Shown: one piece after another, positions 26,381-52,850 of the stretch
How positions within the stretch are numbered: position 1 is the stretch's first letter
Layout: each line of letters begins with the position of its first letter
The notes under the pieces: model-generated
Database searches by the model: none
Told to the model about the DNA's origin: nothing
The model's input: only the letters and a program-made list of their open reading frames with translations
Translations under genes and position numbers: made by a program
Assembly (NCBI GenBank): GCA_913062815.1
Contig: CAJXWZ010000025.1
Span: 1-64,000 of the forward strand
From: an uncultured Colwellia sp.
GTDB lineage: Bacteria > Pseudomonadota > Gammaproteobacteria > Enterobacterales > Alteromonadaceae
Reading direction: 5' to 3'
DNA: 64,000 nucleotides

Positions 26381-26833
26381 ATGAAAAATTCTTTTAAATA
26401 CCCAATTTTCATTTGTTTTGTACTGTTTACTAGTGGTTGTGTTTCATCTGCATTACAGACAGCAATGCAAAAACTTGAACAGGATGCTTCCGCTAAAAGC
26501 CAAGTGAATAAAGAAGCATTACAAGTGATTCAATCACTACGCCTTCAACAGCAATTGGAAAGTAAAGCTACAGTCTTTTCATACCAACAATATCAGAGTC
26601 AATTATTACCTGCTGAGCAACTTCGCTTTAAAGCGCTAATGTTGCAACCAGGTAAGAAAGCTGTATTGCACGTTGCTCCTGCAACGGCGGCGACAAGTCT
26701 ACAAAAAATACTCCTTGCAACAAAGAGAGCCGATGAAATGTTAAAGCTTCTTTCGACTAGTCAGAGAAAAATCGTCATTAAATTTAACCCTAGCCAAGCC
26801 GTCGATACATTACTCATTGAGTTGGAGTCATAA
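26381..26833 (+). CDS. Small lipoprotein heading the sypO-type operon
   Basis: 150 residues from the ATG at 26381; an upstream start at 26324 would overlap the promoter. The signal ends in lipobox TSGC with Cys20. The mature part is helical and Gln-rich (ALQTAMQKLEQDAS, LQVIQSLRLQQQLESK) and then contains KIVIKFNPSQAVDTLLIELES, ending two bases before the next gene. I do not recognise the family. The helical region may contact the co-polymerase or exporter; that is an inference from operon position only. Confidence 0.7.
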   Translation: MKNSFKYPIFICFVLFTSGCVSSALQTAMQKLEQDASAKSQVNKEALQVIQSLRLQQQLESKATVFSYQQYQSQLLPAEQLRFKALMLQPGKKAVLHVAPATAATSLQKILLATKRADEMLKLLSTSQRKIVIKFNPSQAVDTLLIELES

Positions 26834-26834
26834 C

Positions 26835-28292
26835 ATGAATACTAGTGTTGTAGTCAATATACACCTTATTTTTGCTGCTGCTTGGCGTAGAAGATATATG
26901 ATTGTTATGCCAATCATTATTTTCCCTATTATTGCTTTGATTACTTGTTTACTTGCACCGAGGACCTGGGAAACACATACCACTATCTTGGTACAAGAAA
27001 GCGCCAAAATGAATCCATTTTTAGAAGATCTGTCTGTATCTACAGATCTTGAGAATAGAATAACGGCCTTAGATACTTTATTACATAGTCGCCATACCTT
27101 AATAAATGTTGGCTATGACTTAGATATCATATCAGTTGAATCAACCAATGATGACATAGAAAGTTTTGTTAAAAAATTATCAGCGTCATTGAGCGTTAAG
27201 TTGATGGGGAAAGACCTCGTTAAATTAGTATATCGAACTGATAATACGGAAAATATAGTGAAAACATTGGAAATTGTGCGTGAACGTTTTCTTGAAAAAC
27301 TGCTTGCTCCTGAGTTATCAGCAATTGATGCATCAGAAACTTTCTTGACGGAGCAGTTAGCGCTGCAAAAGTTATCTTTGCATAAAGCGGAAGTGAATTT
27401 AGCAGAATTTAAGCAACAAAATACCGAGAGTTTACCGAGTTTGTACAGTACAAATACAACCAGAATGGCTCAATTAAATATGTTGCTCGAAGAACGTAAA
27501 ATAGAACTTTCAGGTGCCGTGGCGGCTAAAAAAACTATAAGAACTCGGTTGGCACAAGTGGATCCCGTTATGAGTGAAATTGAGCAGAATATTGTCGAAA
27601 CGAAAAGTGAATTAGCAATGTTACGCTCTCGTTATACCGATAGTCATAGTAAGGTGCAAACAGCTGATCGAAAGTTGGCTCAACTTGAAAGAGAACGTAC
27701 CGTACAAAGCAAGTCGTCTTATAAAATGAATGATGATGCGCTAAACCGTTTATGGGAAATAGCCAGTAAAATGGAAGATGGTGATATGGACAGTAATCAA
27801 AATTTTTTATTGGTTTCACAACTTAAAGAGCTTCAATTTGCTGTTGGTAAAGTTGAACAAATAAAAGAAGAAATAAATTCAATTTCGAAACAATCAGAAG
27901 CGTTAAAAGCATTAATTCTTGTTTCGGGTGATAAGGAAAGACAATTATTAGCGTTGGAGCGAGATCTTAAAGTAAAGCGTAGCCTATACTCTGACCTTCT
28001 TTCTCGCTCTGAAAAAGCCAAAATAACGGGAGCTTTAGGGAAATTTGAGCAGCCAGAGCGAATCAAGATTATTGATGAGCCCTATAAGCCCACTAATCCA
28101 ACTAATTTCACCTTATCTATTTTCCTTATCGCTGGTGTTATGGGAGGAATAGCTTTGGGAGGGGGGCTAGCTTTATTTGTTGAAATTGCGGACACCAGTA
28201 TTCGCTCAAAACAACAAGTTGAGTTAATTACATCAGCTCCTGTTATAACTCGTATCCCTTTCATATCACCTAATTTAGGAGACAAATTATGA
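26835..28292 (+). CDS. sypO: Wzz/GumC-type polysaccharide chain-length protein (SypO-like)
   Basis: 485 residues from the ATG at 26835 (GGAG seven bases upstream). Two transmembrane helices, about 22-44 and 424-446, bracket a large periplasmic domain with long coiled coils (about 170-260 and 330-390), the layout of polysaccharide co-polymerases. No cytoplasmic kinase domain is attached. It should set chain length or support export of the exopolysaccharide. The next gene overlaps its stop by four bases. The order Wzz-GT-GT-sugar transferase is that of sypO-P-Q-R. Confidence 0.85.
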   Translation: MNTSVVVNIHLIFAAAWRRRYMIVMPIIIFPIIALITCLLAPRTWETHTTILVQESAKMNPFLEDLSVSTDLENRITALDTLLHSRHTLINVGYDLDIISVESTNDDIESFVKKLSASLSVKLMGKDLVKLVYRTDNTENIVKTLEIVRERFLEKLLAPELSAIDASETFLTEQLALQKLSLHKAEVNLAEFKQQNTESLPSLYSTNTTRMAQLNMLLEERKIELSGAVAAKKTIRTRLAQVDPVMSEIEQNIVETKSELAMLRSRYTDSHSKVQTADRKLAQLERERTVQSKSSYKMNDDALNRLWEIASKMEDGDMDSNQNFLLVSQLKELQFAVGKVEQIKEEINSISKQSEALKALILVSGDKERQLLALERDLKVKRSLYSDLLSRSEKAKITGALGKFEQPERIKIIDEPYKPTNPTNFTLSIFLIAGVMGGIALGGGLALFVEIADTSIRSKQQVELITSAPVITRIPFISPNLGDKL

Positions 28293-29383
28293 AACCTGCC
28301 ATTGTACATGTAGTTCAGCATCTAAAGCCGGGCGGAATTGAAAGCTTCGCACTAGAGTTTCAAAAAGTAGCAGCGCCATTTTTTGATGTTTATATTGTTT
28401 CTTTAGAATGTTCATATTATCAAAACTATTGGCATGACATTCCTTCAAATACTAAATTTATAAAAGCACTGAATAAAAAGCCAGGATGGCAATTAAATAC
28501 GCTTGAACAGTTAACCCGATTCTTGAAAAATATTCAACCGATCTATGTGCATACTCATCATATTGGTCCATTAATTTATGGTGGTTTAGCTGCTAAATTA
28601 GCAAATATAAAGCATGTAGTGCACACAGAACACGATGCTTGGCACTTAGCAAATAAGAAGCGAAAATTTCTACAATTTCTAGCATTAAAATTGATAAATC
28701 CTATTTTTGTCGCAGATGCAAATTTTGTTGCTGAACAGGTTAAAACCCTAATGCCTAGCATCAAACCGATTGTCATTAGAAATGGTGTAGATACCGATAA
28801 GTTTAAACCAACAATAAAAGATAAGGCCTTTTATAAAAAGGAAGTAAACTTACCTGTTGAGATGAGTTTTATTGGTTGTGCTGCTAGATTAGAATCAGTA
28901 AAAGCACATGACGTATTAATTAAAGCGTTATCTAAATTGCCAAACTCAGTTGGGTTACTCCTTGCCGGAACAGGAAGTTTACGTGATGAGTTAAATACAC
29001 TTGTTAAAAGTCTACATTTAGAAAATAGAGTCTTCTTTCTAGGGCATGTAGAAAATATGAATAATTTCTATGCGTTATTAGACGTATTTTGTTTAAGCTC
29101 TAACAATGAAGGGCTGCCTATCTCTCCTCTAGAAGCACAAGCGTGTAATGTGCCCGTTGTGTTAACTGATGTCGGTGGTTGTAAAGAAGCTGTTTGTAAT
29201 AAGACTGGCGTAGTGGTAACACCTAATGATCCAATTTTATTAGCTCAAGCTCTCTCTCATTGTTTAGAGCAGAAGATTGATGATAGCCCGCGAGAATTTG
29301 TTAAAAAAGAACGTTCAATTAAACAAATGATACGACAATATCTCTCGTTACTGCAATCCGATTTAAGGAGCAAATTATGTTAG
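28289..29383 (+). CDS. Glycosyltransferase family 4 (SypP position)
   Basis: 364 residues, GT-B fold. The N-terminal HVVQHLKPGGIESFALEFQK holds the Gly-rich acceptor loop. The C-terminal NNEGLPISPLEAQACNVPVVLTDVGG at about 268-293 is the E-x7-E donor site of GT4 enzymes. It transfers a sugar to the growing lipid-linked repeat unit at the cytoplasmic face; donor and linkage cannot be read. ATG overlaps the wzz stop, and its own stop is overlapped by the next gene. Confidence 0.85.
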   Translation: MKPAIVHVVQHLKPGGIESFALEFQKVAAPFFDVYIVSLECSYYQNYWHDIPSNTKFIKALNKKPGWQLNTLEQLTRFLKNIQPIYVHTHHIGPLIYGGLAAKLANIKHVVHTEHDAWHLANKKRKFLQFLALKLINPIFVADANFVAEQVKTLMPSIKPIVIRNGVDTDKFKPTIKDKAFYKKEVNLPVEMSFIGCAARLESVKAHDVLIKALSKLPNSVGLLLAGTGSLRDELNTLVKSLHLENRVFFLGHVENMNNFYALLDVFCLSSNNEGLPISPLEAQACNVPVVLTDVGGCKEAVCNKTGVVVTPNDPILLAQALSHCLEQKIDDSPREFVKKERSIKQMIRQYLSLLQSDLRSKLC

Positions 29384-30561
29384 ATTTAATCATACTTTAC
29401 CTATTTGTTTTTTCATGTTTTTTGATTGTTTATCATCATGTCCTATATCCAGTGTTATTAAAGTTGGTAGCAAAAAAGTTAAATTTGATACCACTTGAAA
29501 TCAAGGGAAGAAGCTATGTTAAAAGCACTAAGGATAAACAATTAAATCGCTTTTCAATCATCATCCCTGCTTATAACGAGGAAAAATATATTGCCGATAA
29601 AATACATAACTTAAGTGCATTAGATTATCCGAGTGATAAATATGAATTTATTTTATTATGCGATGGTTGTAGCGATCAAACGTACCAAGTTGCTAATGAC
29701 GCATTAACTCAATTGTCTTGCCAAGACTTACTCTTTCAAGTGATTAACTTTAATGAAAATAGAGGCAAGGTAGCAGTATTAAAAGATGGTATTAACAAGG
29801 CCAAATTCGAAAATATCGTATTAAGCGATGTTTCTGCTTTGCTACCCATCAATTCATTACTCATGTTAGATTCACATTTTGCAGATGACTTAGTTGGCGC
29901 GGTTTCAGGTGCTTATCGATTTGCGAGTAAAGGCTCTGCAGGAGAACAAAAATACTGGAATTATCAAACTGCAATAAAATCGAGAGAAAGTGCTGTGGCC
30001 AGTGTGCTCGGAGCTCATGGCGCTTTTTATGCACTAAGAAGAGTTTGCTATGAGGAAATACCAGTAGATACGATTAATGATGACTTTCTTATCCCAATGA
30101 ATGTGATCAAACAGGGCTTTCGTGTTGTTTATGAACCCAGAGTTGCTGCAGTAGAGTTAGAGAGTGTAGATATAAACCAAGATATGAAACGACGAGTTAG
30201 AATAGCTGCGGGAAATTTTCAACAGCTTATTTATCTATTGCCATTATTAGCGCCTAAATATGGTTGGAATGCATTTAATTTTGCTTCCGGGAAAGCACTA
30301 AGGGCGTTAACACCATTCATATTATTGATTATCTTACTGACCAGCCTGTATTTATTATCTACACACGCATTCTTTATCTATGTGTTTGTTACCCAAGTCT
30401 TAGTATATGGCGGTGTTTGGCTTACCAATATCCTTAAATATTCACCTAACAATAAATTGATCAAACTCGTTTGTTATCTGATCAATGGCTATTGGGTCGC
30501 GTTAATTGGCTCACTAAAATATATGCTTGGTTTACAACAAAAGGTTTGGACGAAAATCTAG
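29377..30561 (+). CDS. Membrane glycosyltransferase family 2 (SypQ position)
   Basis: 394 residues. One N-terminal transmembrane helix (about 2-25), a GT2 catalytic domain (RFSIIIPAYNEEKYI at about 52-66, LLCDGCSDQT, and a later DDFLIP), and C-terminal membrane helices at about 312-335 and 337-357. RRVRIAAGNFQQ resembles the Q/RxxRW-type region of processive GT2 enzymes in altered form. It probably adds a sugar at the membrane during repeat-unit or chain assembly. SD AAGGAG; it overlaps the previous gene by seven bases. Confidence 0.85.
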   Translation: MLDLIILYLFVFSCFLIVYHHVLYPVLLKLVAKKLNLIPLEIKGRSYVKSTKDKQLNRFSIIIPAYNEEKYIADKIHNLSALDYPSDKYEFILLCDGCSDQTYQVANDALTQLSCQDLLFQVINFNENRGKVAVLKDGINKAKFENIVLSDVSALLPINSLLMLDSHFADDLVGAVSGAYRFASKGSAGEQKYWNYQTAIKSRESAVASVLGAHGAFYALRRVCYEEIPVDTINDDFLIPMNVIKQGFRVVYEPRVAAVELESVDINQDMKRRVRIAAGNFQQLIYLLPLLAPKYGWNAFNFASGKALRALTPFILLIILLTSLYLLSTHAFFIYVFVTQVLVYGGVWLTNILKYSPNNKLIKLVCYLINGYWVALIGSLKYMLGLQQKVWTKI

Positions 30562-30569
30562 GAGAAATT

Positions 30570-31217
30570 ATGTCTATTTATACTTATACTAATTTTCAGC
30601 TTAATGTTAATCACATCAAACGCTTTATTGATGTATCGATAGCCGTGTTATTACTTAGCACCTTATGGCCCTTATTTATCTTTATTGCAGTATTAATTAA
30701 AGTAAGCAGCGCCGGTCCTATTATATATAGCCAGCGCCGCGTAGGGGTGATTTTGAATGATAGAACTGAATTTTTCGATATATATAAATTTAGAACTATG
30801 TGTAATAAAGCTGAAGCACTTACAGGGGCCATTTGGGCTGCGGAAAATGATCCTCGATTAACCTTAATAGGTAAACTTCTAAGAAAGTGTAGGCTTGATG
30901 AATTACCTCAATTAATCAATGTAATAAAAGGCGAGATGTCAATTGTTGGGCCTAGACCTGAACGTCCTGGCATTGCCCTATATTTAGAGAAGAAAATCCC
31001 TTTTTACTCAGAGCGAACTTATGATGTGCTTCCAGGTATTACAGGGTTAGCGCAGGTGCATCAAGGTTATGATACTTCAATCGAAGATGTGAAATCTAAA
31101 ATACTCTATGACTTTGCATACTCCTTATCACTGACTAAACTAACAAAGTGGCTAACGATGGATTTTCTTATAATATGTCGTACTCTGATGATAATGATCC
31201 TCGGTAGAGGTCGTTAA
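30570..31217 (+). CDS. sypR: Initiating sugar-phosphate transferase (SypR-like)
   Basis: 215 residues from the ATG at 30570 (GGAG before it); a longer frame back to 30471 lies inside the previous gene. It has one N-terminal membrane helix (about 16-37) and the full bacterial sugar transferase domain: SAGPIIYSQRRVG, FDIYKFRTMC, LRKCRLDELPQLINV and MSIVGPRPERP. Such enzymes load the first sugar phosphate on undecaprenyl phosphate and so start repeat-unit synthesis. The short form, without the extra N-terminal helices of WcaJ, fits SypR and PglC-like enzymes. Confidence 0.9.
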   Translation: MSIYTYTNFQLNVNHIKRFIDVSIAVLLLSTLWPLFIFIAVLIKVSSAGPIIYSQRRVGVILNDRTEFFDIYKFRTMCNKAEALTGAIWAAENDPRLTLIGKLLRKCRLDELPQLINVIKGEMSIVGPRPERPGIALYLEKKIPFYSERTYDVLPGITGLAQVHQGYDTSIEDVKSKILYDFAYSLSLTKLTKWLTMDFLIICRTLMIMILGRGR

Positions 31218-31260: not shown

Positions 31261-32151
31261 ATGAATAATATTAAAATAGTATGTATCGGTGGCGGACATG
31301 GATTAGGTCACTTGCTTAAAGTTATCTCTAAAATGCAAAATATTGATTTAACCGGTGTAGTCACCACAACTGATAATGGCGGCTCCACAGGAAGGTTAAG
31401 AGAAGACTCTAATACTATAGCATGGGGCGATATCAGGCATTGTTTGTCTGAACTTAGCCAAGAAAGTTCTATTCAATCTTTATTATTTGAGCATAGATTT
31501 AAAGAGTTTGGCGAATTGTCTGGTCACAGCCTAGGTAACCTAATGTTTTGTGCTATCAATGAAATGTGTCTAAAGCCAACTGACAGCGTTAAGGTGATGA
31601 CTAAGTTTTTAAATATAAAGGTAAATTTATTACCTATGTCTGATGCTGCAGCTCACTTGGTCAGTGAAACTAGAAATAAAGAAAGGTTTATTGGAGAAAC
31701 CTCAGTAGATCGCCATATGAAGGAAGAAGTGGTTAAGCTAGTCCTTGAACCAAGCATAAAACCAACAAGTGAAGTAATTCAAGCGATCAGCAGTGCAAAT
31801 ATATTATTTTTAGGTCCTGGAAGCTTCTTCACTAGTACCTTGCCTAGTTTATTGATGCCAGAGATTGTTGATGCAATAAACGAAAATGAAAATGTTGGCA
31901 TATACTTTTTAACTAATGTAGTGAAAGAGTTTACTAATCAGTGTGATGAGTTACTTTTTCAGCTAAATTTTTTAAAAGCATTAGGACTGAATAAAGACAT
32001 TTTTAGTGTTATACCAAACCACCGTAGATTAGACATGGTCAATGATGACCTCTCGTGTATTTTTGCCGAGATCCCTGCAGATAAGTATGGGCGGCATGAC
32101 GCTTTAGCGTTAGAGCGCTTTGTTGATCAAACTATTTACAATAATACCTGA
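31261..32151 (+). CDS. YvcK/CofD-like protein
   Basis: 296 residues. The N-terminus IKIVCIGGGHGLGHLLKVI and VTTTDNGGSTGRLREDS, and later GHSLGNLMFCAI, are the signature of the YvcK/YbhK branch of the CofD fold. These proteins bind UDP-sugars (UDP-GlcNAc in Bacillus YvcK) and link central carbon flow to envelope synthesis; catalytic activity is unproven. It lies 43 bases after the sugar transferase and is the last gene before a gap. I know of no such gene in the Vibrio fischeri syp locus. Here it may report or steer nucleotide-sugar supply. Confidence 0.85.
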   Translation: MNNIKIVCIGGGHGLGHLLKVISKMQNIDLTGVVTTTDNGGSTGRLREDSNTIAWGDIRHCLSELSQESSIQSLLFEHRFKEFGELSGHSLGNLMFCAINEMCLKPTDSVKVMTKFLNIKVNLLPMSDAAAHLVSETRNKERFIGETSVDRHMKEEVVKLVLEPSIKPTSEVIQAISSANILFLGPGSFFTSTLPSLLMPEIVDAINENENVGIYFLTNVVKEFTNQCDELLFQLNFLKALGLNKDIFSVIPNHRRLDMVNDDLSCIFAEIPADKYGRHDALALERFVDQTIYNNT

Positions 32152-32291: not shown

Positions 32292-32307
32292 TGGCTTATT
32301 CGTTGCA
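32292..32307 (+). promoter_or_regulatory. Candidate sigma-54 promoter of the sypA-type operon
   Basis: TGGCTTATTCGTTGCA has TGGC, exact GG-N10-GC spacing and TTGCA. It lies 37 bases upstream of the STAS gene ATG, which has GAGAGG before it. sypA in Vibrio fischeri likewise has a sigma-54 promoter. Confidence 0.7.
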
Positions 32308-32344: not shown

Positions 32345-32695
32345 ATGCAAAATGACAACTACATTATCAATAACGACTTTGTAATTAAATTGCACGATGA
32401 ATTTGATGCAGAGCTTGTAAAATCAATGCGTGACGAATTAGAAGCGTTAAGCGAATTAACTACCAATATCGTAGTTGATCTTAATGATGTCAGGTTTATT
32501 GATTCATCAGGTATTGGCGCCATTGTTTTTCTCTATAAAAGAATGCTTGCCAAAGGCCTTAATCTTTCTGTGGTCGGTTTAGGTATTCAACCAGCCGAGC
32601 TTTTTGAGATGTTGATGCTAGACAAAACAATCAACTGCTACGAAAGTATTGAAAATTACTTGTTAAAAACTCAAGCAATTAAGACGGCATCATAA
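32345..32695 (+). CDS. sypA: STAS-domain protein, SypA-like partner-switch target
   Basis: 116 residues, a single STAS domain of the anti-sigma-factor-antagonist type. The phosphorylatable serine motif is FIDSSGIGAI with Ser54/Ser55. In Vibrio fischeri SypA controls biofilm formation and is phosphorylated or dephosphorylated by SypE. The matching SypE-type enzyme is encoded here at 38604-40103. It is the first gene of the operon, and its stop overlaps the start of the OmpA-like gene by one base. Confidence 0.85.
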   Translation: MQNDNYIINNDFVIKLHDEFDAELVKSMRDELEALSELTTNIVVDLNDVRFIDSSGIGAIVFLYKRMLAKGLNLSVVGLGIQPAELFEMLMLDKTINCYESIENYLLKTQAIKTAS

Positions 32696-33564
32696 TGACT
32701 AGTCTAATTAAACACATTGTAGTGTTACTACTCATGTTTTTGACTGGTTGCAGTTTAGTGAGTAGTAAACGCACTATGATTAGTATATTTGACCTTGAGC
32801 ATTCTGTTAAAAATCAAGACAAAGTGTTGCAACAGTATATTAAAGCAGCCCAGCACCAATTGCTTTCGTTAGAGAAAGCCACTGCCGGCCGCTGTTTAAA
32901 TGGTCAAATGTTTATTGCTAATGCTATCTTTTCAAGAGCAAAAAACGAATATCAAAATACTTTATATAAAGATGCGTTTATTACACTGACACATTTTGAT
33001 AGACAGATAAAAAAAACCCGCTGTATTTTGTCATATGTAGAAGGAAAATTTGGTTGTAAACAAACAAACAATACTTTTATGCTAAAACATTGGTATCAAG
33101 AAGGTCGATATGAACAATGTGATGTAAAAAACAACATAGAAGTTGTTCCCGTGACAAACAAGGCAGTGAAGGAGCTAGAAAATGAAATTATATTTGAAAC
33201 GCTTCATGAGTTTAATAGTGCAGATATTAAACCTATTTACCTAGCAAGCCTTGATAAAGTGGCCGAACTTTTAAATCTTTACCCTGAATCAATAATTTCG
33301 ATAGTTGGTAATGCGGATAGTATAGGTAGCAACTCTTATAATCATAATTTAGGGAAAAAAAGAGCCCAAGAAATTGCCGGGTATTTAATCGACAGGGGCG
33401 TTATACCAGTACGTATTACTGTATCTACTAATGGCGAGGAGCTAATTCGAGAAACTGAACATAATGATGTTGACCGAGTATTTAATCGTTACACGTTATT
33501 GACAGTTAAGTTGATAAGTCAGCGTGCTGAAGTTGAAGTTACTCAAGGAGATTCTCATGATTAG
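32695..33564 (+). CDS. sypB: OmpA-family lipoprotein, SypB-like
   Basis: 289 residues. The lipoprotein signal ends with LTGC, Cys19. The C-terminal OmpA/peptidoglycan-binding domain (about 185-280) contains IVGNADSIGSNSYNHNLGKKRAQEIAGYL in the expected order with a downstream Arg-rich segment (ETEHNDVDRVFNRYTLL). It probably ties the export machine to the cell wall. Between them lies a region with CxC-type spaced cysteines (C80s-C110s) of unknown role. It follows sypA with a one-base overlap and overlaps the exporter gene by eight bases. Confidence 0.82.
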   Translation: MTSLIKHIVVLLLMFLTGCSLVSSKRTMISIFDLEHSVKNQDKVLQQYIKAAQHQLLSLEKATAGRCLNGQMFIANAIFSRAKNEYQNTLYKDAFITLTHFDRQIKKTRCILSYVEGKFGCKQTNNTFMLKHWYQEGRYEQCDVKNNIEVVPVTNKAVKELENEIIFETLHEFNSADIKPIYLASLDKVAELLNLYPESIISIVGNADSIGSNSYNHNLGKKRAQEIAGYLIDRGVIPVRITVSTNGEELIRETEHNDVDRVFNRYTLLTVKLISQRAEVEVTQGDSHD

Positions 33565-44077: not shown

Positions 44078-45407
44078 GAAAAAATATAGAAATCTGATGA
44101 GTCAATCTGTTTACTATGGCTTAGGTATGTTTCTAATGAAGGGGATCTCGTTAGTAATGCTGCCTGTTTATACACATTATTTGTCACCAGAAGATTATGG
44201 AAGGTTGGAGATTCTGGTGGTAATGGCGAATGTATTTTCAATTATTCTCGGTTTTGGCTTAGTTGAAGCACTTTGTCGATTTGTGGGTTTAGCCAAAGAG
44301 TATAGTGATAAAAAGAAGCATGCAGGTGAATGCCTTTTCATCGCTCTTATTGTTGCTTTCAGCTCTTATTTATTCTTTTATTTTTTATCTTCCTCAATTG
44401 CTACGCTACTCCCGGATGCAATTACTGCACACGAAGTCTATTTACTAGGGATGGCCTTAGCCGTTAGTGGTCTAATTAATGTGCCCTTAGCCTGGTTACG
44501 CATAACTGATAATGCGATATTGTTTTTTAAAATCACTATGCTGAAGGTGTTGTTGCAGGTGGTATTATCAGTTTACTGGTTAGCCCAAGGAATGGGGATA
44601 TCAAGTATTCTAGCAGCCGGAGCTGTTTCCTCTGTTATTGTTGCAGTTTTCTTATGTTTTATACAAATTAAAGAAACGGGTCTGCACTTTTCACTAAACA
44701 ACTTAATTAACATTTCAAAATACGCATCACCTATTTTTATTGGTGGCTTAGCAACATTTGCGCTCTCGGGGATGGATAGGTGGGTATTAGCAGAATATTT
44801 TGGAGCAAAGGAAATTGCAGCTTATGCAATTGCTATTAAGTTTGCTTTAGTTCCTACTTTACTCATTCAACCTTTTACTTTGTGGTGGCTCCCTAAAAGA
44901 TATAGCGTTTTAAATGAATCGAATGGCAAGGAAGTCAATGCGCATTTTGCTATTCTTGGCTCTATAATATCTGTTTTGACCTGCGGAGCAATAGGGTTTA
45001 TTGGTCCGTATTTAATCCAATTGTTAACCCCAGTTGAATATCACTCAGCTATAACAATATTACCTTGGTTATTGCTTTGTATGTTAATCAAAATGGTATC
45101 TGAGTTACTAAATTTAGGGTGTTTTATTGATAAGAGCAGTCAAACTCAAATGAATATCAATTTTTTTAGCTGTGGTGTTGGGGCTTTATTATTGCTTGTT
45201 TTAGTGCCGATATTCATGGTTGTCGGCGCAATAGCTTCTCTATTAGTGGCTAATATCCTACGTTTGGTTTTATTCTATCATTATAGTCAAAAACAACTTT
45301 ATCTTCCTTACCGGTTTGGCTATTTATGCACTGCTTTTGGTGCAGCAATAATCGCAATGTGGCTTGGGCAATTAATAGAGAGTAACGCATGGATAGTTGC
45401 AATTTAA
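44070..45407 (+). CDS. sypK: Wzx-type oligosaccharide flippase, SypK-like
   Basis: 445 residues with about 12-14 hydrophobic segments spread over the whole chain and the N-terminal MLPVYTHYLSPEDYGRLEIL typical of the polysaccharide-biosynthesis MATE/MOP superfamily. It should turn undecaprenyl-linked repeat units to the periplasmic face for polymerisation. It overlaps both neighbours (8 and 19 bases), so translation is coupled within the operon. Confidence 0.88.
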   Translation: MLKKKYRNLMSQSVYYGLGMFLMKGISLVMLPVYTHYLSPEDYGRLEILVVMANVFSIILGFGLVEALCRFVGLAKEYSDKKKHAGECLFIALIVAFSSYLFFYFLSSSIATLLPDAITAHEVYLLGMALAVSGLINVPLAWLRITDNAILFFKITMLKVLLQVVLSVYWLAQGMGISSILAAGAVSSVIVAVFLCFIQIKETGLHFSLNNLINISKYASPIFIGGLATFALSGMDRWVLAEYFGAKEIAAYAIAIKFALVPTLLIQPFTLWWLPKRYSVLNESNGKEVNAHFAILGSIISVLTCGAIGFIGPYLIQLLTPVEYHSAITILPWLLLCMLIKMVSELLNLGCFIDKSSQTQMNINFFSCGVGALLLLVLVPIFMVVGAIASLLVANILRLVLFYHYSQKQLYLPYRFGYLCTAFGAAIIAMWLGQLIESNAWIVAI

Positions 45408-46729
45408 AGGGATTTGCCATTGCTACGTACATAATGCTAACTGTTAGCGTTATGTACCTTTTCCCACATCCTATAGTTTTGGTTGCTTTTGGGGTCGTTC
45501 CTTTTGCGCTTTGGGGGGTAGTTCGTTTTTCATTCTATGTGGTTATAGGGTTTGTGGTTTTTTCTTTCTTTAGAATTCATGAAGTTTTTCCGATGATAGA
45601 GCCTTTAAAATTTCCAATGATGCTTGCATTAGGCTCACTATTGGTAATTTCTATTCGTTTAACGATAACTAGAAACTTGCATCCTTATTGGAGCAAACAG
45701 TTTACTTACCTTATGTTATTTTTCATTCTTGTAACCTTAGCAATTCCATTTTCAGCTAATGTTGGTGTAGCAACGACAGCTTGGACTGGGGTATATAGTA
45801 AAATCATTATAATGACATTCGTTATTGCATGGATGATGCGCGAGGAAAGTCACTTTATCATTTCATGCCGTATTTTTCTTGTAGCGGGTGCATGTGTAGG
45901 CATTGTCGCTCTAATAAACAAAGCTAATGGCGTGGGCCTTGTAGAAGGGACAAGAGTTACCATAGGACGAGATATTGGCTCACTGCTTGGCGATCCTAAT
46001 GATTTGGCGCTAGTGTTACTTTACCCTATGGCATATGCAATAGCGTCTTTTTTAGAGAATCAATTAACTCGATTTGAAAGGGTATTTGCTTTTGTAGTAT
46101 TTGTTTTGTTGCTTTTTGCTTTATTGGCAACGCAAAGTAGGGGGGGGTTGTTAGGATTTTTAGCGGTTGTGGGGTTATTTGCCTACAATCGAGTACGTTC
46201 AAAAATAATGCTGTTTGGCGGTGGTACTGTTGTTTTATTGATATTGTTTGCAGTAGCAGGTATTAGCGATAGATCGTCAGGAGGAGCAGCAGAAGAAGGT
46301 ATTGATGAATCTGCAATGGGACGTATATATGCTTGGGAAGCTGCCTGGAATATGGCCCTTGATAATCCATTTTTAGGAGTAGGTATAAACAACTTTATCC
46401 ATAATTATTTTTCTTATAGCACACATTGGGATGGAATGAATCATGCGGTGCATTCTACTTGGTTTGGCGTGTTAGCGGAGTCAGGATTCTTAGGGCTATT
46501 TTTGTTTGTAGGTTTGATTGTGACAACCTTTACTGCCGCTTGGAAAATTTTAAAAAATACCGATTTAGCTAAGCTTTCACCTGGCATGAGAGTTACTGTT
46601 AATGCAGCCCCTGCGGGCATTGTTGGCTTTGTCGTGTCAGGCACCTTTCTTACTCAAGGTTTTATCTGGCCAATTTACTTACAGGTTGCACTTGTTATCG
46701 CTTTACAACGTTATTTTCATAAAGAATAG
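45389..46729 (+). CDS. sypL: O-antigen ligase/Wzy-type polymerase, SypL-like
   Basis: 446 residues with about 11 hydrophobic segments. The central TQSRGGLLGFLAVVG (about 249-263) and the large periplasmic loop with GVGINNFIHNYF and HAVHSTWFGVLAESGFLG (about 330-370) are the O-antigen ligase (Wzy_C) signature. It joins repeat units or transfers chains in the periplasm. It starts within the flippase gene. Whether it polymerises or ligates cannot be told from sequence. Confidence 0.87.
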   Translation: MDSCNLKGFAIATYIMLTVSVMYLFPHPIVLVAFGVVPFALWGVVRFSFYVVIGFVVFSFFRIHEVFPMIEPLKFPMMLALGSLLVISIRLTITRNLHPYWSKQFTYLMLFFILVTLAIPFSANVGVATTAWTGVYSKIIIMTFVIAWMMREESHFIISCRIFLVAGACVGIVALINKANGVGLVEGTRVTIGRDIGSLLGDPNDLALVLLYPMAYAIASFLENQLTRFERVFAFVVFVLLLFALLATQSRGGLLGFLAVVGLFAYNRVRSKIMLFGGGTVVLLILFAVAGISDRSSGGAAEEGIDESAMGRIYAWEAAWNMALDNPFLGVGINNFIHNYFSYSTHWDGMNHAVHSTWFGVLAESGFLGLFLFVGLIVTTFTAAWKILKNTDLAKLSPGMRVTVNAAPAGIVGFVVSGTFLTQGFIWPIYLQVALVIALQRYFHKE

Positions 46730-46767
46730 GCTGAAAATTAAGTTTAAAAAATTTGAAGGAGCTAAAT

Positions 46768-47985
46768 ATGAAAAATGTTTTGTTCGTACACTACGGTGAA
46801 GATTGGATACGCGGTAGTGAAATTGTTCTTTTGGATATGCTAACTTCATCAATTAACCTTGGCAGAAAGCCTATTTTGTGGTGTAACAGTAAAGTGCTAG
46901 CTCAAGAGGCTACTAAAATCGGCGCTAAAGTTATTCTAGACAGGTTTGTCAATATTGGTTATTGGACTCTGCCACGGTGGGATTTTTTTCAATATTTCAA
47001 AATTTTACTAAAGACCAAGAAGATCATAAAAGCGCATGATATTGACTTGGTTCACTGTAATAATGGGGCACCATGCCAATGGCTATCTTTGGTATGTAAA
47101 TTAATGGGAGTACCATTACTTCTACACTTACACGCACGATATCAACAAAGAGATAGAGTTATATTGCTATTTCATTTTGCCGACCGAGTGATTGGGGTAA
47201 GCAAAGCTGTTTTGACTATTTTTAACGACTATGAATTTGAACCAAAGATTTTATCTGTCGTTCACAATGGCATTTCAGAAAAAAGAGTGGAATCCAAAGT
47301 ACTTATAAATATCAGAGAAATGATTAACGCAAAAGAAGATGATTTCGTTATTCTTTATATAGGTTCGTTGATCAAACGCAAGGGCATAGATACTTTAATC
47401 GCTAGTTTAAATAGGTTGGGCACAATGCGCTCGGTAAAATTGGCAATTTTCGGGAGCGGAGAAGAGCTGAGTAATTTACTTCAGTTAATTGAACAATTAA
47501 AACTTGGTGATGTGGTTTCAATATTTTCTGAAGTTTCTGATGTTGGTAGCTTATATTCCAGCAATGCAGATTGTTTTATTTCTGTGCCTTTAGAAGAAGT
47601 GTTCGGTTTAACTTTAGCTGAAGCAAGTTTGTCAGGGTTACCTATTATCAGTACAACCGTTCCTGGTGTTAATGAAATTTATACTCACGAGCAAAATGCC
47701 TTGTTAGTGCCTGCAGGAAATTGCGATGAGTTAGCAATTGCGATATCGCGATTGATAGAGACCCCTAATTTTGCAAAGCAATTGGCCATAAGTGGCAAAG
47801 AGCACATTAGCAATAATTATTCTCTGATTAATCAAAGTGCTGAAGTTGAGCAGCAATACCACATGCTGTTTGCATCAAGACAAAAATCATTTTTTTCATG
47901 CTTTGTCGCTACTTTCTTTATTTTTGTGAAATCATGCTCTGAAAAGTTAAATAACTTACTTAAACGGAAGGTGAGATATGACTAA
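46768..47985 (+). CDS. Glycosyltransferase family 4 (SypI/SypJ type)
   Basis: 405 residues from the ATG at 46768 (GAAGGAG upstream). VHYGEDWIRGSEIVLLDML marks the N-terminal domain, and VPLEEVFGLTLAEASLSGLPII at about 272-293 is the E-x7-E donor site. The middle has FVILYIGSLIKRKGIDTLI, the usual start of the second Rossmann domain. The last 30 residues are hydrophobic and then basic and may touch the membrane. It follows the ligase by 38 bases and overlaps the next gene by eight. Confidence 0.85.
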   Translation: MKNVLFVHYGEDWIRGSEIVLLDMLTSSINLGRKPILWCNSKVLAQEATKIGAKVILDRFVNIGYWTLPRWDFFQYFKILLKTKKIIKAHDIDLVHCNNGAPCQWLSLVCKLMGVPLLLHLHARYQQRDRVILLFHFADRVIGVSKAVLTIFNDYEFEPKILSVVHNGISEKRVESKVLINIREMINAKEDDFVILYIGSLIKRKGIDTLIASLNRLGTMRSVKLAIFGSGEELSNLLQLIEQLKLGDVVSIFSEVSDVGSLYSSNADCFISVPLEEVFGLTLAEASLSGLPIISTTVPGVNEIYTHEQNALLVPAGNCDELAIAISRLIETPNFAKQLAISGKEHISNNYSLINQSAEVEQQYHMLFASRQKSFFSCFVATFFIFVKSCSEKLNNLLKRKVRYD

Positions 47986-49069
47986 GCAGGTGTTGATTTT
48001 TGATCCTGTGCCTTATAAAGGCGGTTCAAAAAAGGTGGCACAATCAGTATTGTCGACGTTTCCTGAAAACCTTTCTGTGGTTGTGGTCTCAAATGATAAG
48101 CTTTCTTGGCAGCCTTGTAATGTTGAAGTTTTACCGCTGTACTCAGTAAACTTTTTAGTTAATAAAACAGAAGGGCTCGGCTACTTTCTTAAACATTTTT
48201 TCTATAGCTTAGTTTTATTGTATTACTTCATTAAGCGAGGAACTTTTTCTAAGGTAATAGGGATTTCTGGACCAACAGTAGATTTATCTCTTTATGTACT
48301 AAGTATTATTGTTCGATGTGAAGTTATACAGCTCGTTCAAGGAAATGTGCCTGAGACGCGTATCGCTGCTTATGGATTAAAAAAAGCTTATAGCGTGCAT
48401 TATCTTCAATCTACAGAGGCTTCAATTAAGAACGCGCTGGTTAGGAGCAATAGCTTTTCACTCTTAAATTCTCCAAGATTTAACGACTTTGTCAATTCAG
48501 TCGATGCTAATGCTATATCAAAGAAACAAGAAAACAGTGCTGTTGGTGTGCTATGGGCCGCTTCACTTTTACCTTGGAAGCGACTTGAACTTTTTGTCGA
48601 AGCTTTCAAAGAGCTAGATCAGCAAGCAGAACACATTCTAAGTAATTATTATGGTGATGCATGCTTTATCGTAGCCAAAAATAACGATGTCATAGCGCCA
48701 TCGCGAGAGCTATATAAAATAAAGTTCCAGGAAGACCCAAAAGATTTAGATCACATTAGAGCCAATTCTTCAATTTTTGTATCAACATCAATAAAAGAGC
48801 CATTTGGCTTATCTATTCTAGAGTCGATGGTGGCAGGTTTAACTATTGTTATCCCAAAAGATGGTGCCTATTGGGATAAACACTTAACCCATGGCATCAA
48901 TTGCTTGAAGTTTGATGCCAATAACCCCCAAAGTTTATGCTTTGCTATTTTGACCCTTATCAATGATGGTGAGTTACGTAATAGACTGGCAAAGAATAGT
49001 CAACAATTTGCACGCGGTTATACCAACCTAAAGTGCTATTCGAAGATTCTCAACTCTATTATCAATTAG
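47978..49069 (+). CDS. Glycosyltransferase family 4-like (SypJ type)
   Basis: 363 residues. The N-terminal half is diverged (FDPVPYKGGSKKVAQSVL), with a hydrophobic stretch at about 64-85 that may sit on the membrane. The C-terminal donor domain has GVLWAASLLPWKRLELFVEAF and KEPFGLSILESMVAGLTIVIPK at about 269-290, which keeps the glutamates of the E-x7-E site. It is the last gene of the operon begun at 43040; a nested inverted repeat follows. Confidence 0.8.
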   Translation: MTKQVLIFDPVPYKGGSKKVAQSVLSTFPENLSVVVVSNDKLSWQPCNVEVLPLYSVNFLVNKTEGLGYFLKHFFYSLVLLYYFIKRGTFSKVIGISGPTVDLSLYVLSIIVRCEVIQLVQGNVPETRIAAYGLKKAYSVHYLQSTEASIKNALVRSNSFSLLNSPRFNDFVNSVDANAISKKQENSAVGVLWAASLLPWKRLELFVEAFKELDQQAEHILSNYYGDACFIVAKNNDVIAPSRELYKIKFQEDPKDLDHIRANSSIFVSTSIKEPFGLSILESMVAGLTIVIPKDGAYWDKHLTHGINCLKFDANNPQSLCFAILTLINDGELRNRLAKNSQQFARGYTNLKCYSKILNSIIN

Positions 49070-49138: not shown

Positions 49139-49147
49139 GTTTTTGAT

Positions 49148-49163
49148 TGGTACGTCTTATGCA
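49148..49163 (+). promoter_or_regulatory. Candidate sigma-54 promoter of the acyltransferase operon
   Basis: TGGTACGTCTTATGCA differs from TGGCACG-N4-TTGCA at two positions and keeps exact GG-N10-GC spacing, the best overall match in the window. sypM in Vibrio fischeri is also preceded by a sigma-54 promoter. Confidence 0.7.
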
Positions 49164-49394
49164 CTGTAAAGCTGTACAGTTATCAAAGGTAGTTATCGTG
49201 TGTGGACGTATGGGTGACAGAGTCGTTTGTGACGAGTTAAGTTTGATTCGAAAATTTTTTTGGATTACACAAATGCTTCCGCTCAACTTCACTATTCGTC
49301 AATGTCATTTCTTTGCAATTGCCGGCCTATTTTGAGGGTGATTTATTGGAAGATGCATTGTTTAATTAATAATAGCAAAGTTGGTAGTAGTCTA

Positions 49395-50105
49395 ATGAAT
49401 ACATTCAATATGAAATATGCCAAACAATGGGCGAAAACAAGTGATCATAAAATGGCTAAATTGATAAAGAGAAGTTGGTTTGCAATTAAATCATTTGAGA
49501 TCCCACAAGTTCCAATTATTTTTAGTGTTTTATATGTATTGCATATAACACTTAAGCAAGTATTTTCTGACTTTACCCGTATTTTTTATTATACGGCTAT
49601 CTTCAAAACAAGGGTTAATAACCAGCCGAAGCGCCTCTATTTATATGGTGGCTTACCCGTTGTTATTGGTAGTTTAGAAATCACTATGGGAGATGACGTT
49701 CGGTTGGCGGCTATGACCACGATAAGCGGGCGCACGGTAGGTAATTACCGTCCATCGCTAGTAATAGGAAACAATGTCGGAATTGCTTGGCGTACCTCTA
49801 TCTCTGTTGGCACTACCGTTATTTTAGGTGATAACGTTCGTATTGCCGGTGATTGCTTTTTAGCAGGATATCCAGGTCATCCTGTTGATGCTAAGGAACG
49901 CGCAAAGGGTAAGCCAGATACAGAAAATCAAATTGGCGATATTATCCTAGAAAATGATGTGTGGCTTGGCACAGGAGTGAAAGTTATGCCAGGGGTAACA
50001 ATAGGCGAGGGTAGCATTGTGGCTGCTGGAAGTGTTGTTACCAAAGACTTACCTAAGCATGTACTAGCTGCAGGAGTGCCAGCTTGTATAGTGAAGTCAC
50101 TTTGA
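49395..50105 (+). CDS. sypM: Hexapeptide-repeat acyltransferase, SypM-like
   Basis: About 236 residues from the ATG at 49395; the frame is open further upstream (another ATG at 49353) and the true start is uncertain because no good ribosome binding site is present. After an N-terminal segment (about 1-65) with a hydrophobic stretch come left-handed beta-helix repeats: VIGSLEITMGDD, VIGNNVGIAW, ILGDNVRIAGDCF, then VWLGTGVKVMPGVTIGEGSIVAAGSVVTKDLPKHV. This is a LbetaH transferase that would O-acetylate or otherwise acylate the polysaccharide. Confidence 0.82.
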   Translation: MNTFNMKYAKQWAKTSDHKMAKLIKRSWFAIKSFEIPQVPIIFSVLYVLHITLKQVFSDFTRIFYYTAIFKTRVNNQPKRLYLYGGLPVVIGSLEITMGDDVRLAAMTTISGRTVGNYRPSLVIGNNVGIAWRTSISVGTTVILGDNVRIAGDCFLAGYPGHPVDAKERAKGKPDTENQIGDIILENDVWLGTGVKVMPGVTIGEGSIVAAGSVVTKDLPKHVLAAGVPACIVKSL

Positions 50106-50115
50106 GGAGATAAAC

Positions 50116-51333
50116 ATGTCCATCCACACTGAAGTTAACAAGAGTCGTCCATTAATCGTATTTGGTGAAGATTGGGGCGGTCATCCAAGTTCAACTCAGC
50201 ATCTTATTAAAGAATTAAATCAACATAGAAAAGTAATTTGGATTAATTCGATAGGCTTGAGAAAACCTAAATTGACATGGCGAGATTTTTACCGTGTGGT
50301 AAAAAAACTAACATCATTTATCCGACCTAAGAAAGAAAATTCTAAACTCGCAGAAATAAACCAATGCCGCAATTTTACCGTTATAAGTCCTTTGGTTGTG
50401 CCTTGTGCAAATTCATGGTTTTCGGTGAAAATAAGTAAGTGGATGTTGGCTAGGCAGATAAGAAAGGCTGTAATAAGCCTTGATATTAAAGACCCCATTG
50501 TATGGTGTTCTTTACCGACAGCCGTTGATTATATATCGCTCTTTGAAAACAGCATCAGTGTATATTATTGTGGTGATGACTTTGGCAGTTTAGCAGGTGT
50601 AGATCATGCTGTGGTCTTAAAAAAAGAGCAGTTACTTGTTAACAAAGTAAAATATGTATTTACCGCAAGCGAAGCCTTGTTAAGTAAATTCCCAAAAGAA
50701 AAGGCAGTAATAGTGCCTCATGGAGTCAACTTTCCTTTGTTTAATAATAAGCAAAGAGAAATGCCTGATGACTTACCAAGGGGAGGCTTTATTGCGGGCT
50801 TTTATGGCAGTATCTCGACATGGATAGATCAAGATCTTATTTTATCTGCCGCCAGAAGCCTACCAAGTTGGAACTTTGTCTTTATTGGTAATGTCGAGTG
50901 CAATATAGATGCATTACTTGGTGTGCCAAATATATATTTCTTGGAGGCTAAGCAGCACTATGAATTACCCAATTATATTCAACACTGGAGTGTTGCTTTA
51001 CTACCATTTATAAACAACAAACAAATACAAATGTGTAATCCTTTAAAATTAAGAGAGTATTTAGCCAGTGGTACGCCAGTAGTATCCACAAAATTTAATG
51101 CAGTAGCCGCTTACGAAGATCATGTGAAAATTATTGGTGACAAAGAGGATATAGCCCAAGCTATTTTACTTGCCAATGCCGAAGTTACTACAAAGATGAA
51201 TTTTGATAGCATTGTCCATATTAATGATTTGCTGGCGATAACCTCAGTTAAAAAGGTAAGAACTAATAGTGTCATTAGTGAGTCATGGCAAAATAGGGCA
51301 GATAAAATTGATAACTATTTGATTGGATGCTAA
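50116..51333 (+). CDS. Glycosyltransferase, GT4/GT1-like (SypN type)
   Basis: 405 residues; strong SD GAGGAG before the ATG, ten bases after the acyltransferase. N-terminal FGEDWGGHPSSTQHLIKEL, central ISVYYCGDDFGSLAG, and the second domain beginning GGFIAGFYGSISTWID resemble the family with a YY.D motif seen in exopolysaccharide clusters. The usual E-x7-E is replaced by MCNPLKLREYLASGTPVV with conserved K-x-x-E-Y. It likely transfers a sugar to the repeat unit or chain. It ends the two-gene operon. Confidence 0.8.
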   Translation: MSIHTEVNKSRPLIVFGEDWGGHPSSTQHLIKELNQHRKVIWINSIGLRKPKLTWRDFYRVVKKLTSFIRPKKENSKLAEINQCRNFTVISPLVVPCANSWFSVKISKWMLARQIRKAVISLDIKDPIVWCSLPTAVDYISLFENSISVYYCGDDFGSLAGVDHAVVLKKEQLLVNKVKYVFTASEALLSKFPKEKAVIVPHGVNFPLFNNKQREMPDDLPRGGFIAGFYGSISTWIDQDLILSAARSLPSWNFVFIGNVECNIDALLGVPNIYFLEAKQHYELPNYIQHWSVALLPFINNKQIQMCNPLKLREYLASGTPVVSTKFNAVAAYEDHVKIIGDKEDIAQAILLANAEVTTKMNFDSIVHINDLLAITSVKKVRTNSVISESWQNRADKIDNYLIGC

Positions 51334-51502
51334 GCGTTTTTTTATTAAAAGAGCGCTTATAACTACTTTGTTTGTTTACATTTAAATAATAATATTGCTA
51401 TGGTTAAACACTAAGCTCTCTCCTCTTACTTGATAGTTATACTGAAGTATGATTTTCCTCTAAATGGGTGTTCTTAATGATGATACGAAAGAAATTTAAA
51501 AG

Positions 51503-51518
51503 CGGCTAATCATATGCT
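51503..51518 (+). promoter_or_regulatory. Candidate sigma-54 promoter of the receiver/HD-GYP-like gene
   Basis: CGGCTAATCATATGCT keeps exact GG-N10-GC and TGCT, but the -24 box begins with C. It lies 45 bases upstream of the ATG at 51564. No GCA-N3-TGC motif was found upstream. Confidence 0.5.
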
Positions 51519-51563
51519 TATGCGGTAATTGCCATTCAATGGCTATAAAAATGGAATTGTGCA

Positions 51564-52850
51564 ATGACTAAACCTGAGTTATTAATAGTAGATGATGAAG
51601 AAGATGTGCTTAACGCGCTTAAAAGGCTTTTACGAAAAGAGTTTGAGCTGCATTTGTTTTCAGATCCGCTTGCGGCATTAGATTTCTTTAAAAATAATCC
51701 TGTACCTCTGGTTATATCAGACATGCGTATGCCTATAATGGACGGAGCTACATTTTTAGCAAGAGTCACAGAAATTAGTCAAAGGTCAAAACGTTTTCTT
51801 TTAACCGGTCATGCAGATATTAACTCAACAGTTTCTGCAGTAAATGAAGGAAAGATCTCTCATTATTTTGCTAAGCCATGGGACAATAATGAATTGGTCT
51901 CTGAACTAAAGTTAGCGCACGAGTTGTTTCTTTCTGAAGTTAAATCTAAAAGGTTATTAAGAAGAAATATTGAAAAGAATGCTGAGCTTTCTCTTTTAAA
52001 TGATGCCTTAGGGCTAGAAGTCGATAAAGGCAAGAAAAAACTAGAATTGCTTTCATATCGAGAAGCTAAAAGTTTTGTAAGGCTCAAAAAAACATTTTCA
52101 ACATTCATTGACCTTAATGCGGATACTATTTCTCTTCATACTCAAGACAAGACTAAGCACAATTATAGAGTTGCTGCGCAAGCTAGACTTGTTGCAGAAC
52201 AGTTGACGAATGACAAACTGGTTATTTTTCAAATTTATATTGCAGGTCTACTATATGAAACTGGCAAGTTAGCCCTACCACAATCATTACTAGTGCAAAC
52301 GTTTGACTCAATGAGTCAACAAGACCGAACTTTATTTAATAACTTTTATAGTGAAGGTTTCAATTTGCTACTCAAAGTAAAAGAGCTTAGTAATATCGCC
52401 AACATCATTAAGCATATCCCAGAGCATTATAATGGGCTAGGTCTTCCGGAGCATTTGTCTAAGGAAGATATCCCTCTTGGATCTCGGATATTATCGGTAG
52501 TCTCCGCATACGATAACTTAGCTATTGGTAGACAAACACAAGCTGTTATTTCTACTATTGAGGCTCAACACCGTATTAAGGAACTGTCTAAATCAATATA
52601 TGATCCCCATGTTGTTAATCAATTTATTACCTTACTGGAGAGCATGCCAAATGCAACCGAGGGTAGTGTTGAGTATATTGTTAATATTTCGCAACTTGAA
52701 GTTGACCATATTCTCGCTAAAGATTTAGCGAACCCTAATCAAAGTATCCTTTTGACCAAAGGAACAATTATCGAAGCTCATCATATTGAAAAATTGAAAG
52801 CATTAGAGGTTGAACATAACGTCTCTTTTTCTTTATTCATTTTAAAATAA
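51564..52850 (+). CDS. Receiver protein with degenerate HD-GYP domain
   Basis: 428 residues. Receiver about 5-120 with Asp53 (VISDMRMP), a coiled coil about 120-165, then an HD-GYP-like domain about 175-380. Metal ligands of active HD-GYP phosphodiesterases are changed: HN at 199-200 where HD is expected, YETGK at 231-235 for HDIGK, and HIPEHYNGLGLPE at 284-296 in place of HHE..DG.GYP. It is likely inactive against cyclic di-GMP and may bind it or a protein partner. The first receiver of the SypF-like protein is similar. It is a single gene with its own sigma-54-type promoter. Confidence 0.82.
   Translation: MTKPELLIVDDEEDVLNALKRLLRKEFELHLFSDPLAALDFFKNNPVPLVISDMRMPIMDGATFLARVTEISQRSKRFLLTGHADINSTVSAVNEGKISHYFAKPWDNNELVSELKLAHELFLSEVKSKRLLRRNIEKNAELSLLNDALGLEVDKGKKKLELLSYREAKSFVRLKKTFSTFIDLNADTISLHTQDKTKHNYRVAAQARLVAEQLTNDKLVIFQIYIAGLLYETGKLALPQSLLVQTFDSMSQQDRTLFNNFYSEGFNLLLKVKELSNIANIIKHIPEHYNGLGLPEHLSKEDIPLGSRILSVVSAYDNLAIGRQTQAVISTIEAQHRIKELSKSIYDPHVVNQFITLLESMPNATEGSVEYIVNISQLEVDHILAKDLANPNQSILLTKGTIIEAHHIEKLKALEVEHNVSFSLFILK

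Follow-up and report, generated by a model that had tools for sequence, protein, structure and literature searches.

Biofilm polysaccharide loci of the syp/scv type have been described in 28 genera, Alteromonadales (Thalassotalea, Thalassomonas) included, with variable gene content (PMC8941931). The target of one of their regulators, SypA, was unknown in 2015 (PMC4517449), and a 2023 report placed SypA below transcription, acting through an unknown protein target (PMC10120452). GlmR, also called YvcK, stimulates GlmS in Bacillus subtilis (PMC7525490), and GlmR of Listeria and relatives is described as making UDP-N-acetylglucosamine (UDP-GlcNAc) in vitro (PMC10128056). Here, we analyze 64,000 nucleotides of an uncultured Colwellia sp. 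(assembly GCA_913062815.1, contig CAJXWZ010000025.1, positions 1 to 64,000; hereafter, the window), in which a syp-type cluster holds a YvcK/GlmR gene between sypR and sypA. Judged by its proteins, the cluster is a true syp/scv locus. This kind of locus is not new, because Alteromonadales examples were in print in 2022 (PMC8941931); the YvcK/GlmR gene is the unexpected part, in no paper that we found. We consider it fairly probable that the window holds a true syp locus with sigma-54 promoters, a SypF-type relay to SypG, and a SypA/SypE switch, in which YvcK is a dedicated checkpoint on amino-sugar supply.

Gene content and order place the cluster in the syp/scv family

Twenty-five window proteins were compared by BLASTP in both directions with the 23 open reading frames (ORFs) of a 29-kilobase (kb) syp stretch from Aliivibrio fischeri strain emors.2.1, reciprocity being judged inside the two compared stretches, not across whole proteomes. 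All 18 Syp proteins, SypA to SypR, were reciprocal best hits at 30-50% identity (lowest, SypE at 30%; highest, SypC, SypG, and SypM at 50%), with short aligned parts for SypA (86 amino acids), SypB (114 amino acids), and SypF (295 amino acids, the kinase core). Orthologs of the structural genes C, D, and H to R are all present by this comparison, which bears out a first-pass annotation of the same DNA as a complete syp-type locus matching V. fischeri SypA-R. The 18 reciprocal best hits also contradict chance or artifact as the source of the likeness. Several window proteins match models of the XrtA system below cut-off, and SypC barely exceeds one (183.1 vs 180 bits). A different exopolysaccharide system of the XrtA/PEP-CTERM type that merely resembles syp is nevertheless very improbable, as all 18 proteins, the SypA/SypE/SypG core included, find their reciprocal best hits among A. 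fischeri Syp proteins.

We then set the window beside other loci of the source organism's own family (10 syp loci in 9 genomes, window included; hereafter, the family loci). These loci are related, G406 to G443 and G460 to G379 nearly identically, so per-locus counts are not independent. In the window, the genes run O, P, Q, R, YvcK, A, B, C, D, F, E, G, EEP, H, K, L, I, J, M, N, and REC-HD, all on the + strand except EEP (-). The features are as follows; sigma-54-like elements are scored out of 11.

23497..23512, +: sigma-54 -24/-12-like element before the LruC gene, 9 of 11; recurrent in family loci
23547..25640, +: LruC/DUF4842 protein, probably secreted, with a presumed matrix or surface role; TIGR04456 260 bits (cut-off 36)
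25651..26124, +: small lipoprotein-like protein; 10/10 family loci; no Pfam family
26324..26833, +: small lipoprotein-like protein, start probably 26381 as in the first-pass annotation; 10/10 family loci; no Pfam family
26817..28292, +: SypO, Wzz/GNVR chain-length protein; domains, reciprocal best hit
28289..29383, +: SypP, GT4 glycosyltransferase; domains, reciprocal best hit
29377..30561, +: SypQ, GT2 glycosyltransferase; domains, reciprocal best hit; top NCBIfam match PgaC, far under cut-off
30471..31217, +: SypR, sugar-phosphate transferase, true start probably downstream of the listed one; domains, reciprocal best hit
31261..32151, +: YvcK/GlmR (CofD-related) paralog; TIGR01826 244 bits (cut-off 196); syp-linked clade
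32292..32307, +: sigma-54 -24/-12-like element before sypA, 9 of 11; recurrent in family loci
32345..32695, +: SypA, STAS protein; domain, reciprocal best hit; Ser54 aligned with A. fischeri Ser56
32695..33564, +: SypB, OmpA-type lipoprotein; domains, reciprocal best hit
33524..35668, +: SypC, export protein carrying multiple SLBB domains; domains, reciprocal best hit
35670..36359, +: SypD, CpsD-like ATPase; domains, reciprocal best hit
36383..38611, +: SypF-like hybrid kinase REC-HisKA-HATPase-REC-HPt, probably soluble; domains, reciprocal best hit, hydrophobicity scan
38604..40103, +: SypE, serine kinase-REC-PP2C phosphatase; domains, reciprocal best hit, motifs, tree
40397..41815, +: SypG, sigma-54 activator, LuxO family; domains, reciprocal best hit
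41810..42754, -: EEP-family protein; domain match
42772-42787, before the EEP gene: sigma-54-like element, 10 of 11; site scan
42987..43002, +: sigma-54-like element before sypH, 8 of 11; recurrent in family loci
43040..44077, +: SypH, GT4 glycosyltransferase; domains, reciprocal best hit
44070..45407, +: SypK, flippase; domains, reciprocal best hit
45389..46729, +: SypL, ligase/polymerase; domains, reciprocal best hit
46753..47985, +: SypI, GT4 glycosyltransferase; domains, reciprocal best hit
47978..49069, +: SypJ, GT4 glycosyltransferase; domains, reciprocal best hit
49260..50105, +: SypM, hexapeptide acetyltransferase; domains, reciprocal best hit
50116..51333, +: SypN, glycosyltransferase; domains, reciprocal best hit
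51564..52850, +: NosR-like receiver-HD protein with a degenerate HD motif; domain match, NosR model below cut-off

ORFs and domains, checked gene by gene, place every gene type named in the first-pass annotation where it was claimed. Its gene order did not name SypI and SypJ, which are the two glycosyltransferases at 46753-49069; its added genes (YvcK-like, EEP, and receiver/HD) were found, the last with a degenerate HD motif. The start of the locus, put at 26381, has to be moved. The LruC/DUF4842 protein at 23547 is a nineteenth reciprocal best hit, its A. fischeri counterpart adjoining sypA, and the LruC gene and two small lipoprotein-like genes stand in the same order in 10/10 family loci; hence, the locus starts there. 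Its LruC/DUF4842 product is possibly a matrix protein; a literature search combining LruC, Vibrio, and biofilm turned up only two Leptospira papers.

The permuted order claimed earlier (O-P-Q-R; A-B-C-D-F-E-G; H-K-L-...-M-N) was confirmed. The ten family loci share its plan: LruC protein, two lipoprotein-like genes, O-P-Q-R, YvcK, and A-B-C-D, then F-E-G where present, H-K-L-I-J, and M-N as far as the stretches reach. In G408, about five other ORFs separate YvcK from A, and its stretch holds no H to N; the G518 and G460 loci are cut, and no E was labeled in G408, G518, or a second locus of our own assembly. More widely, SypE was found in 27 genomes, our own included, and longer stretches were taken for 20 of the other 26; in two of these 20 (G047 and G260), SypE has no label, longer overlapping frames having been kept in gene calling. 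O-P-Q-R block genes also lie directly before A in Psychromonas, Motilimonas, Marinomonas, Pseudoalteromonas, a Pseudomonas metagenome-assembled genome (MAG), and a Plesiomonas plasmid, and Photobacterium lipolyticum has Q-R before A, where its stretch ends. The window order is thus permuted relative to A. fischeri yet not unusual; several arrangements exist, that of A. fischeri being one.

Compared with A. fischeri syp, the window has the same 18 genes, the SypA/SypE serine-switch motifs, a sigma-54-like site before sypA, and a nearby LruC protein, whereas it differs in gene order and adds the YvcK, EEP, and REC-HD genes. It likewise resembles the published scv loci, which are of the same family, with a broad host range in aquatic bacteria and variable gene content (PMC8941931).

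A YvcK/GlmR paralog forms a syp-linked clade

The window YvcK scores 244 bits with TIGR01826, over the curated cut-off of 196. Three YvcK genes in the assembly exceed this cut-off (the window copy, that of the second syp locus, and an ordinary copy located elsewhere), and a fourth, weak CofD-like match falls below it. Among 295 family genomes, the syp-linked form scores 363-571 bits and the next match 242. Its ten members come from 9 of the 295 genomes, all lie within syp loci, directly adjoin sypA in 9/10, and form a clade with 100/100 support (a tree of 52 rows, chosen from the loci fetched). In 369 genomes drawn from across the class, with this family sparsely represented, our own genome alone matched at E 1e-75.

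As in Bacillus and Listeria GlmR/YvcK, the window protein exceeds the family cut-off and keeps the GGG and GGST motifs and the first Asp before GGST. In contrast to them, it is an additional copy that lies within a biofilm polysaccharide locus, with the proposed active-site Asn replaced. An Arg aligns in 9/10 members of the clade; judging from an R-H motif, it may correspond to the UDP-GlcNAc-binding R301 of B. subtilis. No Protein Data Bank (PDB) match extends past residue 222, and a structure model (mean predicted local distance difference test score, 67.5; below 50 at residues 38-52, 219-233, and 249-296) was not used as evidence. A literature search by titles and term counts, with subscription journals and preprints outside its reach and so not proof of novelty, gave nothing linking YvcK, GlmR, CofD, or YbhK with syp or biofilm. 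The main text of the scv survey makes no mention of YvcK, CofD, GlmR, or GlmS (PMC8941931).

YvcK and SypE co-occur in Pseudoalteromonas and beyond

We surveyed 108 Pseudoalteromonas genomes, counting YvcK when over the family cut-off and SypE at E of at most 1e-30. YvcK was present in 36 genomes and SypE in 34; all 34 SypE-positive genomes had YvcK, against 2 of 74 SypE-negative genomes (Fisher p = 5e-26, ancestry ignored). Twelve more genomes with sub-cut-off YvcK matches (eleven at 78-90 bits, plus a broken copy in G1006) were counted as negative. The two genes lie 2.9-3.5 kb apart in 31 of the 34, 33 kb apart in two, and on separate contigs in one. Fifteen stretches were opened. As to YvcK without SypE, G957 has a syp locus and a short SypE-like ORF, and it and the second such genome, G955, look like remnants. 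G1006 keeps G, HPt, and F, with A-E outside its stretch and YvcK broken.

In a genus that we judge from gene context to be probably Shewanella (g15), YvcK lies within 1.5 kb of SypE in 11/11 loci, and in the five stretches of about 40 kb that were inspected, it sits beside A, C, D, and E while glycan genes like those of the window are absent. There, YvcK is the sole copy in 3/3 genomes and falls among ordinary YvcK in the tree. The syp-adjacent YvcK is likewise the sole copy in three Pseudoalteromonas genomes searched. In Zooshikella, the only YvcK lies in divergent orientation beside STAS and SypE genes on an 11-kb contig, where neither B, C, D, nor a glycan gene like those of the window was labeled. 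Overall, 45 of 80 SypE loci (35 + 10) were labeled, some of them ended by contig ends; the other 35 (L190-L193, L195-L225) are partial or remote matches. YvcK was labeled in 8 of the 45: 7/7 in Pseudoalteromonas and 1/1 in Zooshikella.

These linkages bear on a second explanation, namely that YvcK is the direct effector of SypA/SypE: unphosphorylated SypA would bind YvcK and release precursor supply, and SypE would stop this by phosphorylating the SypA serine. Its support lies in the adjacency to sypA in the family loci, the close spacing in Pseudoalteromonas and g15, the sole copies in both genera, the Zooshikella arrangement, and a report that SypA works below transcription via an unknown protein (PMC10120452). 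However, the SypA-YvcK contact is hypothetical, the Zooshikella contig is short, SypE loci occur in genomes where no YvcK was found, and YvcK and SypE are unlinked in the Vibrionaceae genomes checked. On balance, we regard YvcK as unlikely to be the direct effector. The broader form of this idea is similarly doubtful: YvcK/GlmR would be the SypA/SypE target, and STAS-PP2C-YvcK a metabolic partner switch that gates amino-sugar precursors rather than a sigma factor, also apart from polysaccharide genes. Linkage and co-occurrence do name YvcK/GlmR as a SypA-target candidate testable in an existing genetic system; if this were true, the biofilm polysaccharide program would be tied directly to hexosamine metabolism.

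One further locus stands by itself: on an Azospirillaceae contig (L173), a GlmS gene, perhaps an ordinary one and not counted here, adjoins a SypE-like gene in a genome where no YvcK was found.

Sigma-54-like sites recur at fixed positions

For the -24/-12-like sites, the background is 0.11 per 270 bases at a score of at least 8 of 11 and 0.25 at one of at least 7. Sites scoring at least 8 precede the LruC gene in 10/10 family loci and sypA in 9/10, and sites scoring at least 7 precede sypH in all nine loci that have H. Other positions with at least 8 are sypI (8/9, the window not among them), sypM (4/7), sypL (4/9), sypO (3/10), EEP (1/3), sypC (1/10), and sypQ (1/10). Of the three family loci with an EEP gene, only the window showed a site before it, the 10-of-11 one. 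Weak EEP homologs were also located between R and A in Psychromonas.

A whole-window scan gave 41 matches vs 32.9 expected, and 11 of 100 shuffles reached as high. The window-wide count is therefore meaningless, and recurring position alone is informative.

The sites also bear on a third explanation, in which YvcK has no regulatory role and either is a passenger in the glycan cassette or serves it as a plain precursor enzyme. The family YvcK directly follows sypR, ahead of the promoter-like site of sypA, and has no upstream site of its own with at least 8 of 11 in any of the ten loci; moreover, Listeria GlmR has been characterized as an accessory uridyltransferase (PMC10128056). Against this, the five g15 stretches keep YvcK by A, C, D, and E without window-like glycan genes, which argues that the link follows the regulatory-export module, not the glycan genes. 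We hold this reading without a regulatory role to be improbable.

A published SypG enhancer motif (PMC10162802) matches exactly upstream of syp genes in A. fischeri and, once, in the EEP-H interval of the second locus. Its palindromic variant finds no match in the window.

SypA and SypE keep their motifs, and SypG resembles LuxO

SypA Ser54 aligns with A. fischeri Ser56, and the DSSGIGAIV block is identical. SypE has its kinase, receiver, and PP2C domains. Alignments show that the SypA Ser, the kinase and phosphatase boxes of SypE, and the phospho-sites of SypF are kept. SypE groups with SypE of syp loci from the same family at 100/100 support, a weak test in a tree of SypE-like proteins only, with no unrelated outgroup. 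SypG is 53.6% identical to an Aliivibrio LuxO vs 49.9% to A. fischeri SypG, and its tree leaves LuxO unplaced. SypG has fitting domains and a fitting place but is inseparable from LuxO by sequence, and its name rests on its position in the locus.

The SypF-like kinase has the kinase core and HPt, an extra N-terminal receiver, and no hydrophobic stretch in a Kyte-Doolittle scan. It therefore differs from a membrane hybrid kinase with HPt, and from A. fischeri SypF, in its missing membrane segment and added receiver. SypF is missing from the locus in 38 of 62 scv-positive Vibrio species and is hence not a required feature (PMC8941931). The NosR-like N-terminal receiver (36383-36770) on this membrane-less SypF-type kinase suggests that another kinase feeds it.

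The last gene (REC-HD) scores 374.7 bits with the NosR family model NF053512 (NCBIfam), just under the cut-off of 400. Against the canonical HD motif, its own reads Y-E, so the product is probably not a working phosphodiesterase. Homologs stand behind sypN in G234, G406, G443, G425, and G379. Within the window, both this gene and the SypF N-terminal receiver match the NosR model, as do an activator and a REC-HD gene in the second locus; on these matches, a common nitric-oxide input may exist.

The assembly contains a further syp locus

A second, divergent syp locus lies at 40-62 kb of contig C27 (loci L079 and L080). No E, F, or G was labeled in it; YvcK is present, with H-NOX, kinase, and NosR-like genes upstream and an activator of its own at its end. 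It encodes a full-length GlmS, 42% identical to the ordinary GlmS elsewhere, and keeps the sigma-54-like sites before the LruC gene, sypA, and sypH. Because these sites are kept while E, F, and G are unlabeled, the window SypG may serve both loci. The tetranucleotide correlation of the second locus with the window is 0.93, and the window gives 0.82-0.92 with three other stretches of its own assembly; this check on contamination (estimated at 3.67% for the assembly) has low power, another genome of the same genus also giving 0.91.

A model for YvcK as a checkpoint on amino-sugar supply

We propose that the products of R, P, Q, H, I, J, N, and M would build a lipid-linked oligosaccharide, likely to contain amino sugars and acetyl groups, that K, L, and O would flip and polymerize, and that B, C, and D would export as the biofilm polysaccharide. 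Sigma-54 promoters before the LruC gene, sypA, and sypH would be driven by SypG via a SypF-type phosphorelay, and the SypA/SypE serine switch would set output below transcription. YvcK/GlmR, acting by stimulating GlmS or by making UDP-GlcNAc itself, would couple polysaccharide output to UDP-GlcNAc supply, like GlmR for the Bacillus cell wall, and would belong functionally with the SypA/SypE module. What the sequences show is the gene content, the kept motifs, the promoter-like sites, and the linkage and co-occurrence of YvcK; the sugar, the use of the promoters, the activity of YvcK, and any contact of YvcK with SypA are inferred. We derive this adjustment of amino-sugar supply, expected while the locus is on, from the likeness of SypQ to PgaC, from the second locus's own GlmS, and from the published roles of GlmR.

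Several observations weigh against this model. First, PgaC, a poly-GlcNAc synthase, is the best NCBIfam hit of SypQ at 87.7 bits vs a cut-off of 422. Second, the proposed active-site Asn of Listeria GlmR is replaced by Ser in 9/10 clade members and the second active-site Asp by Asn in 10/10; at the equivalents of D40, D41, and N198 (positions transferred by manual count from PDB alignments), the window reads D, N, and S, and ordinary family copies read D, N, and P in 22/22. Enzyme activity of the syp YvcK is therefore not assured from its residues. Third, sigma-54-like sites also precede an internal gene, sypL, in 4/9 family loci. Fourth, unlike in A. fischeri, the exact V. fischeri-type SypG enhancer motif (PMC10162802) is absent before the window genes scanned, where two one-mismatch matches precede sypA.

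Fifth, YvcK is often elsewhere or missing. It was not seen in the stretches of 37 of the 45 labeled SypE loci, and the search of 16 genomes gave no YvcK in two, Glaciecola HTCC2999 and an Azospirillaceae MAG, both with SypE. The sole YvcK lies outside the fetched syp stretch in A. fischeri, Vibrio penaeicida, Psychromonas, Aeromonas, Motilimonas, Photobacterium, and Enterovibrio (one genome each). Conversely, YvcK persists in G955 with no A-E in its vicinity, its stretch containing just an HPt gene in addition. Finally, a single ancient event may underlie the linkage in each of Pseudoalteromonas and g15, ancestry being ignored by the Fisher test. Given the SypE loci and genomes without YvcK, the SypA target may differ between lineages.

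Neighboring genes and mobile copies

In V. fischeri, nitric oxide controls syp via HnoX-HahK (PMC12369376). Similarly, an H-NOX gene and a kinase gene adjoin 7/10 family syp loci, the second locus of our assembly included (Pfam check on two of the seven). In contrast, the window locus showed no neighboring H-NOX gene; its upstream flank (19709-22794) encodes a periplasmic-binding protein and a HAMP-type kinase instead. A plasmid search with SypE gave two Plesiomonas records, and one with YvcK gave 28 records, their neighborhoods left unopened. In two Pseudoalteromonas genomes (G986 and G1037; loci L254 and L256), H-NOX, kinase, and REC-HD genes are near syp genes as well.

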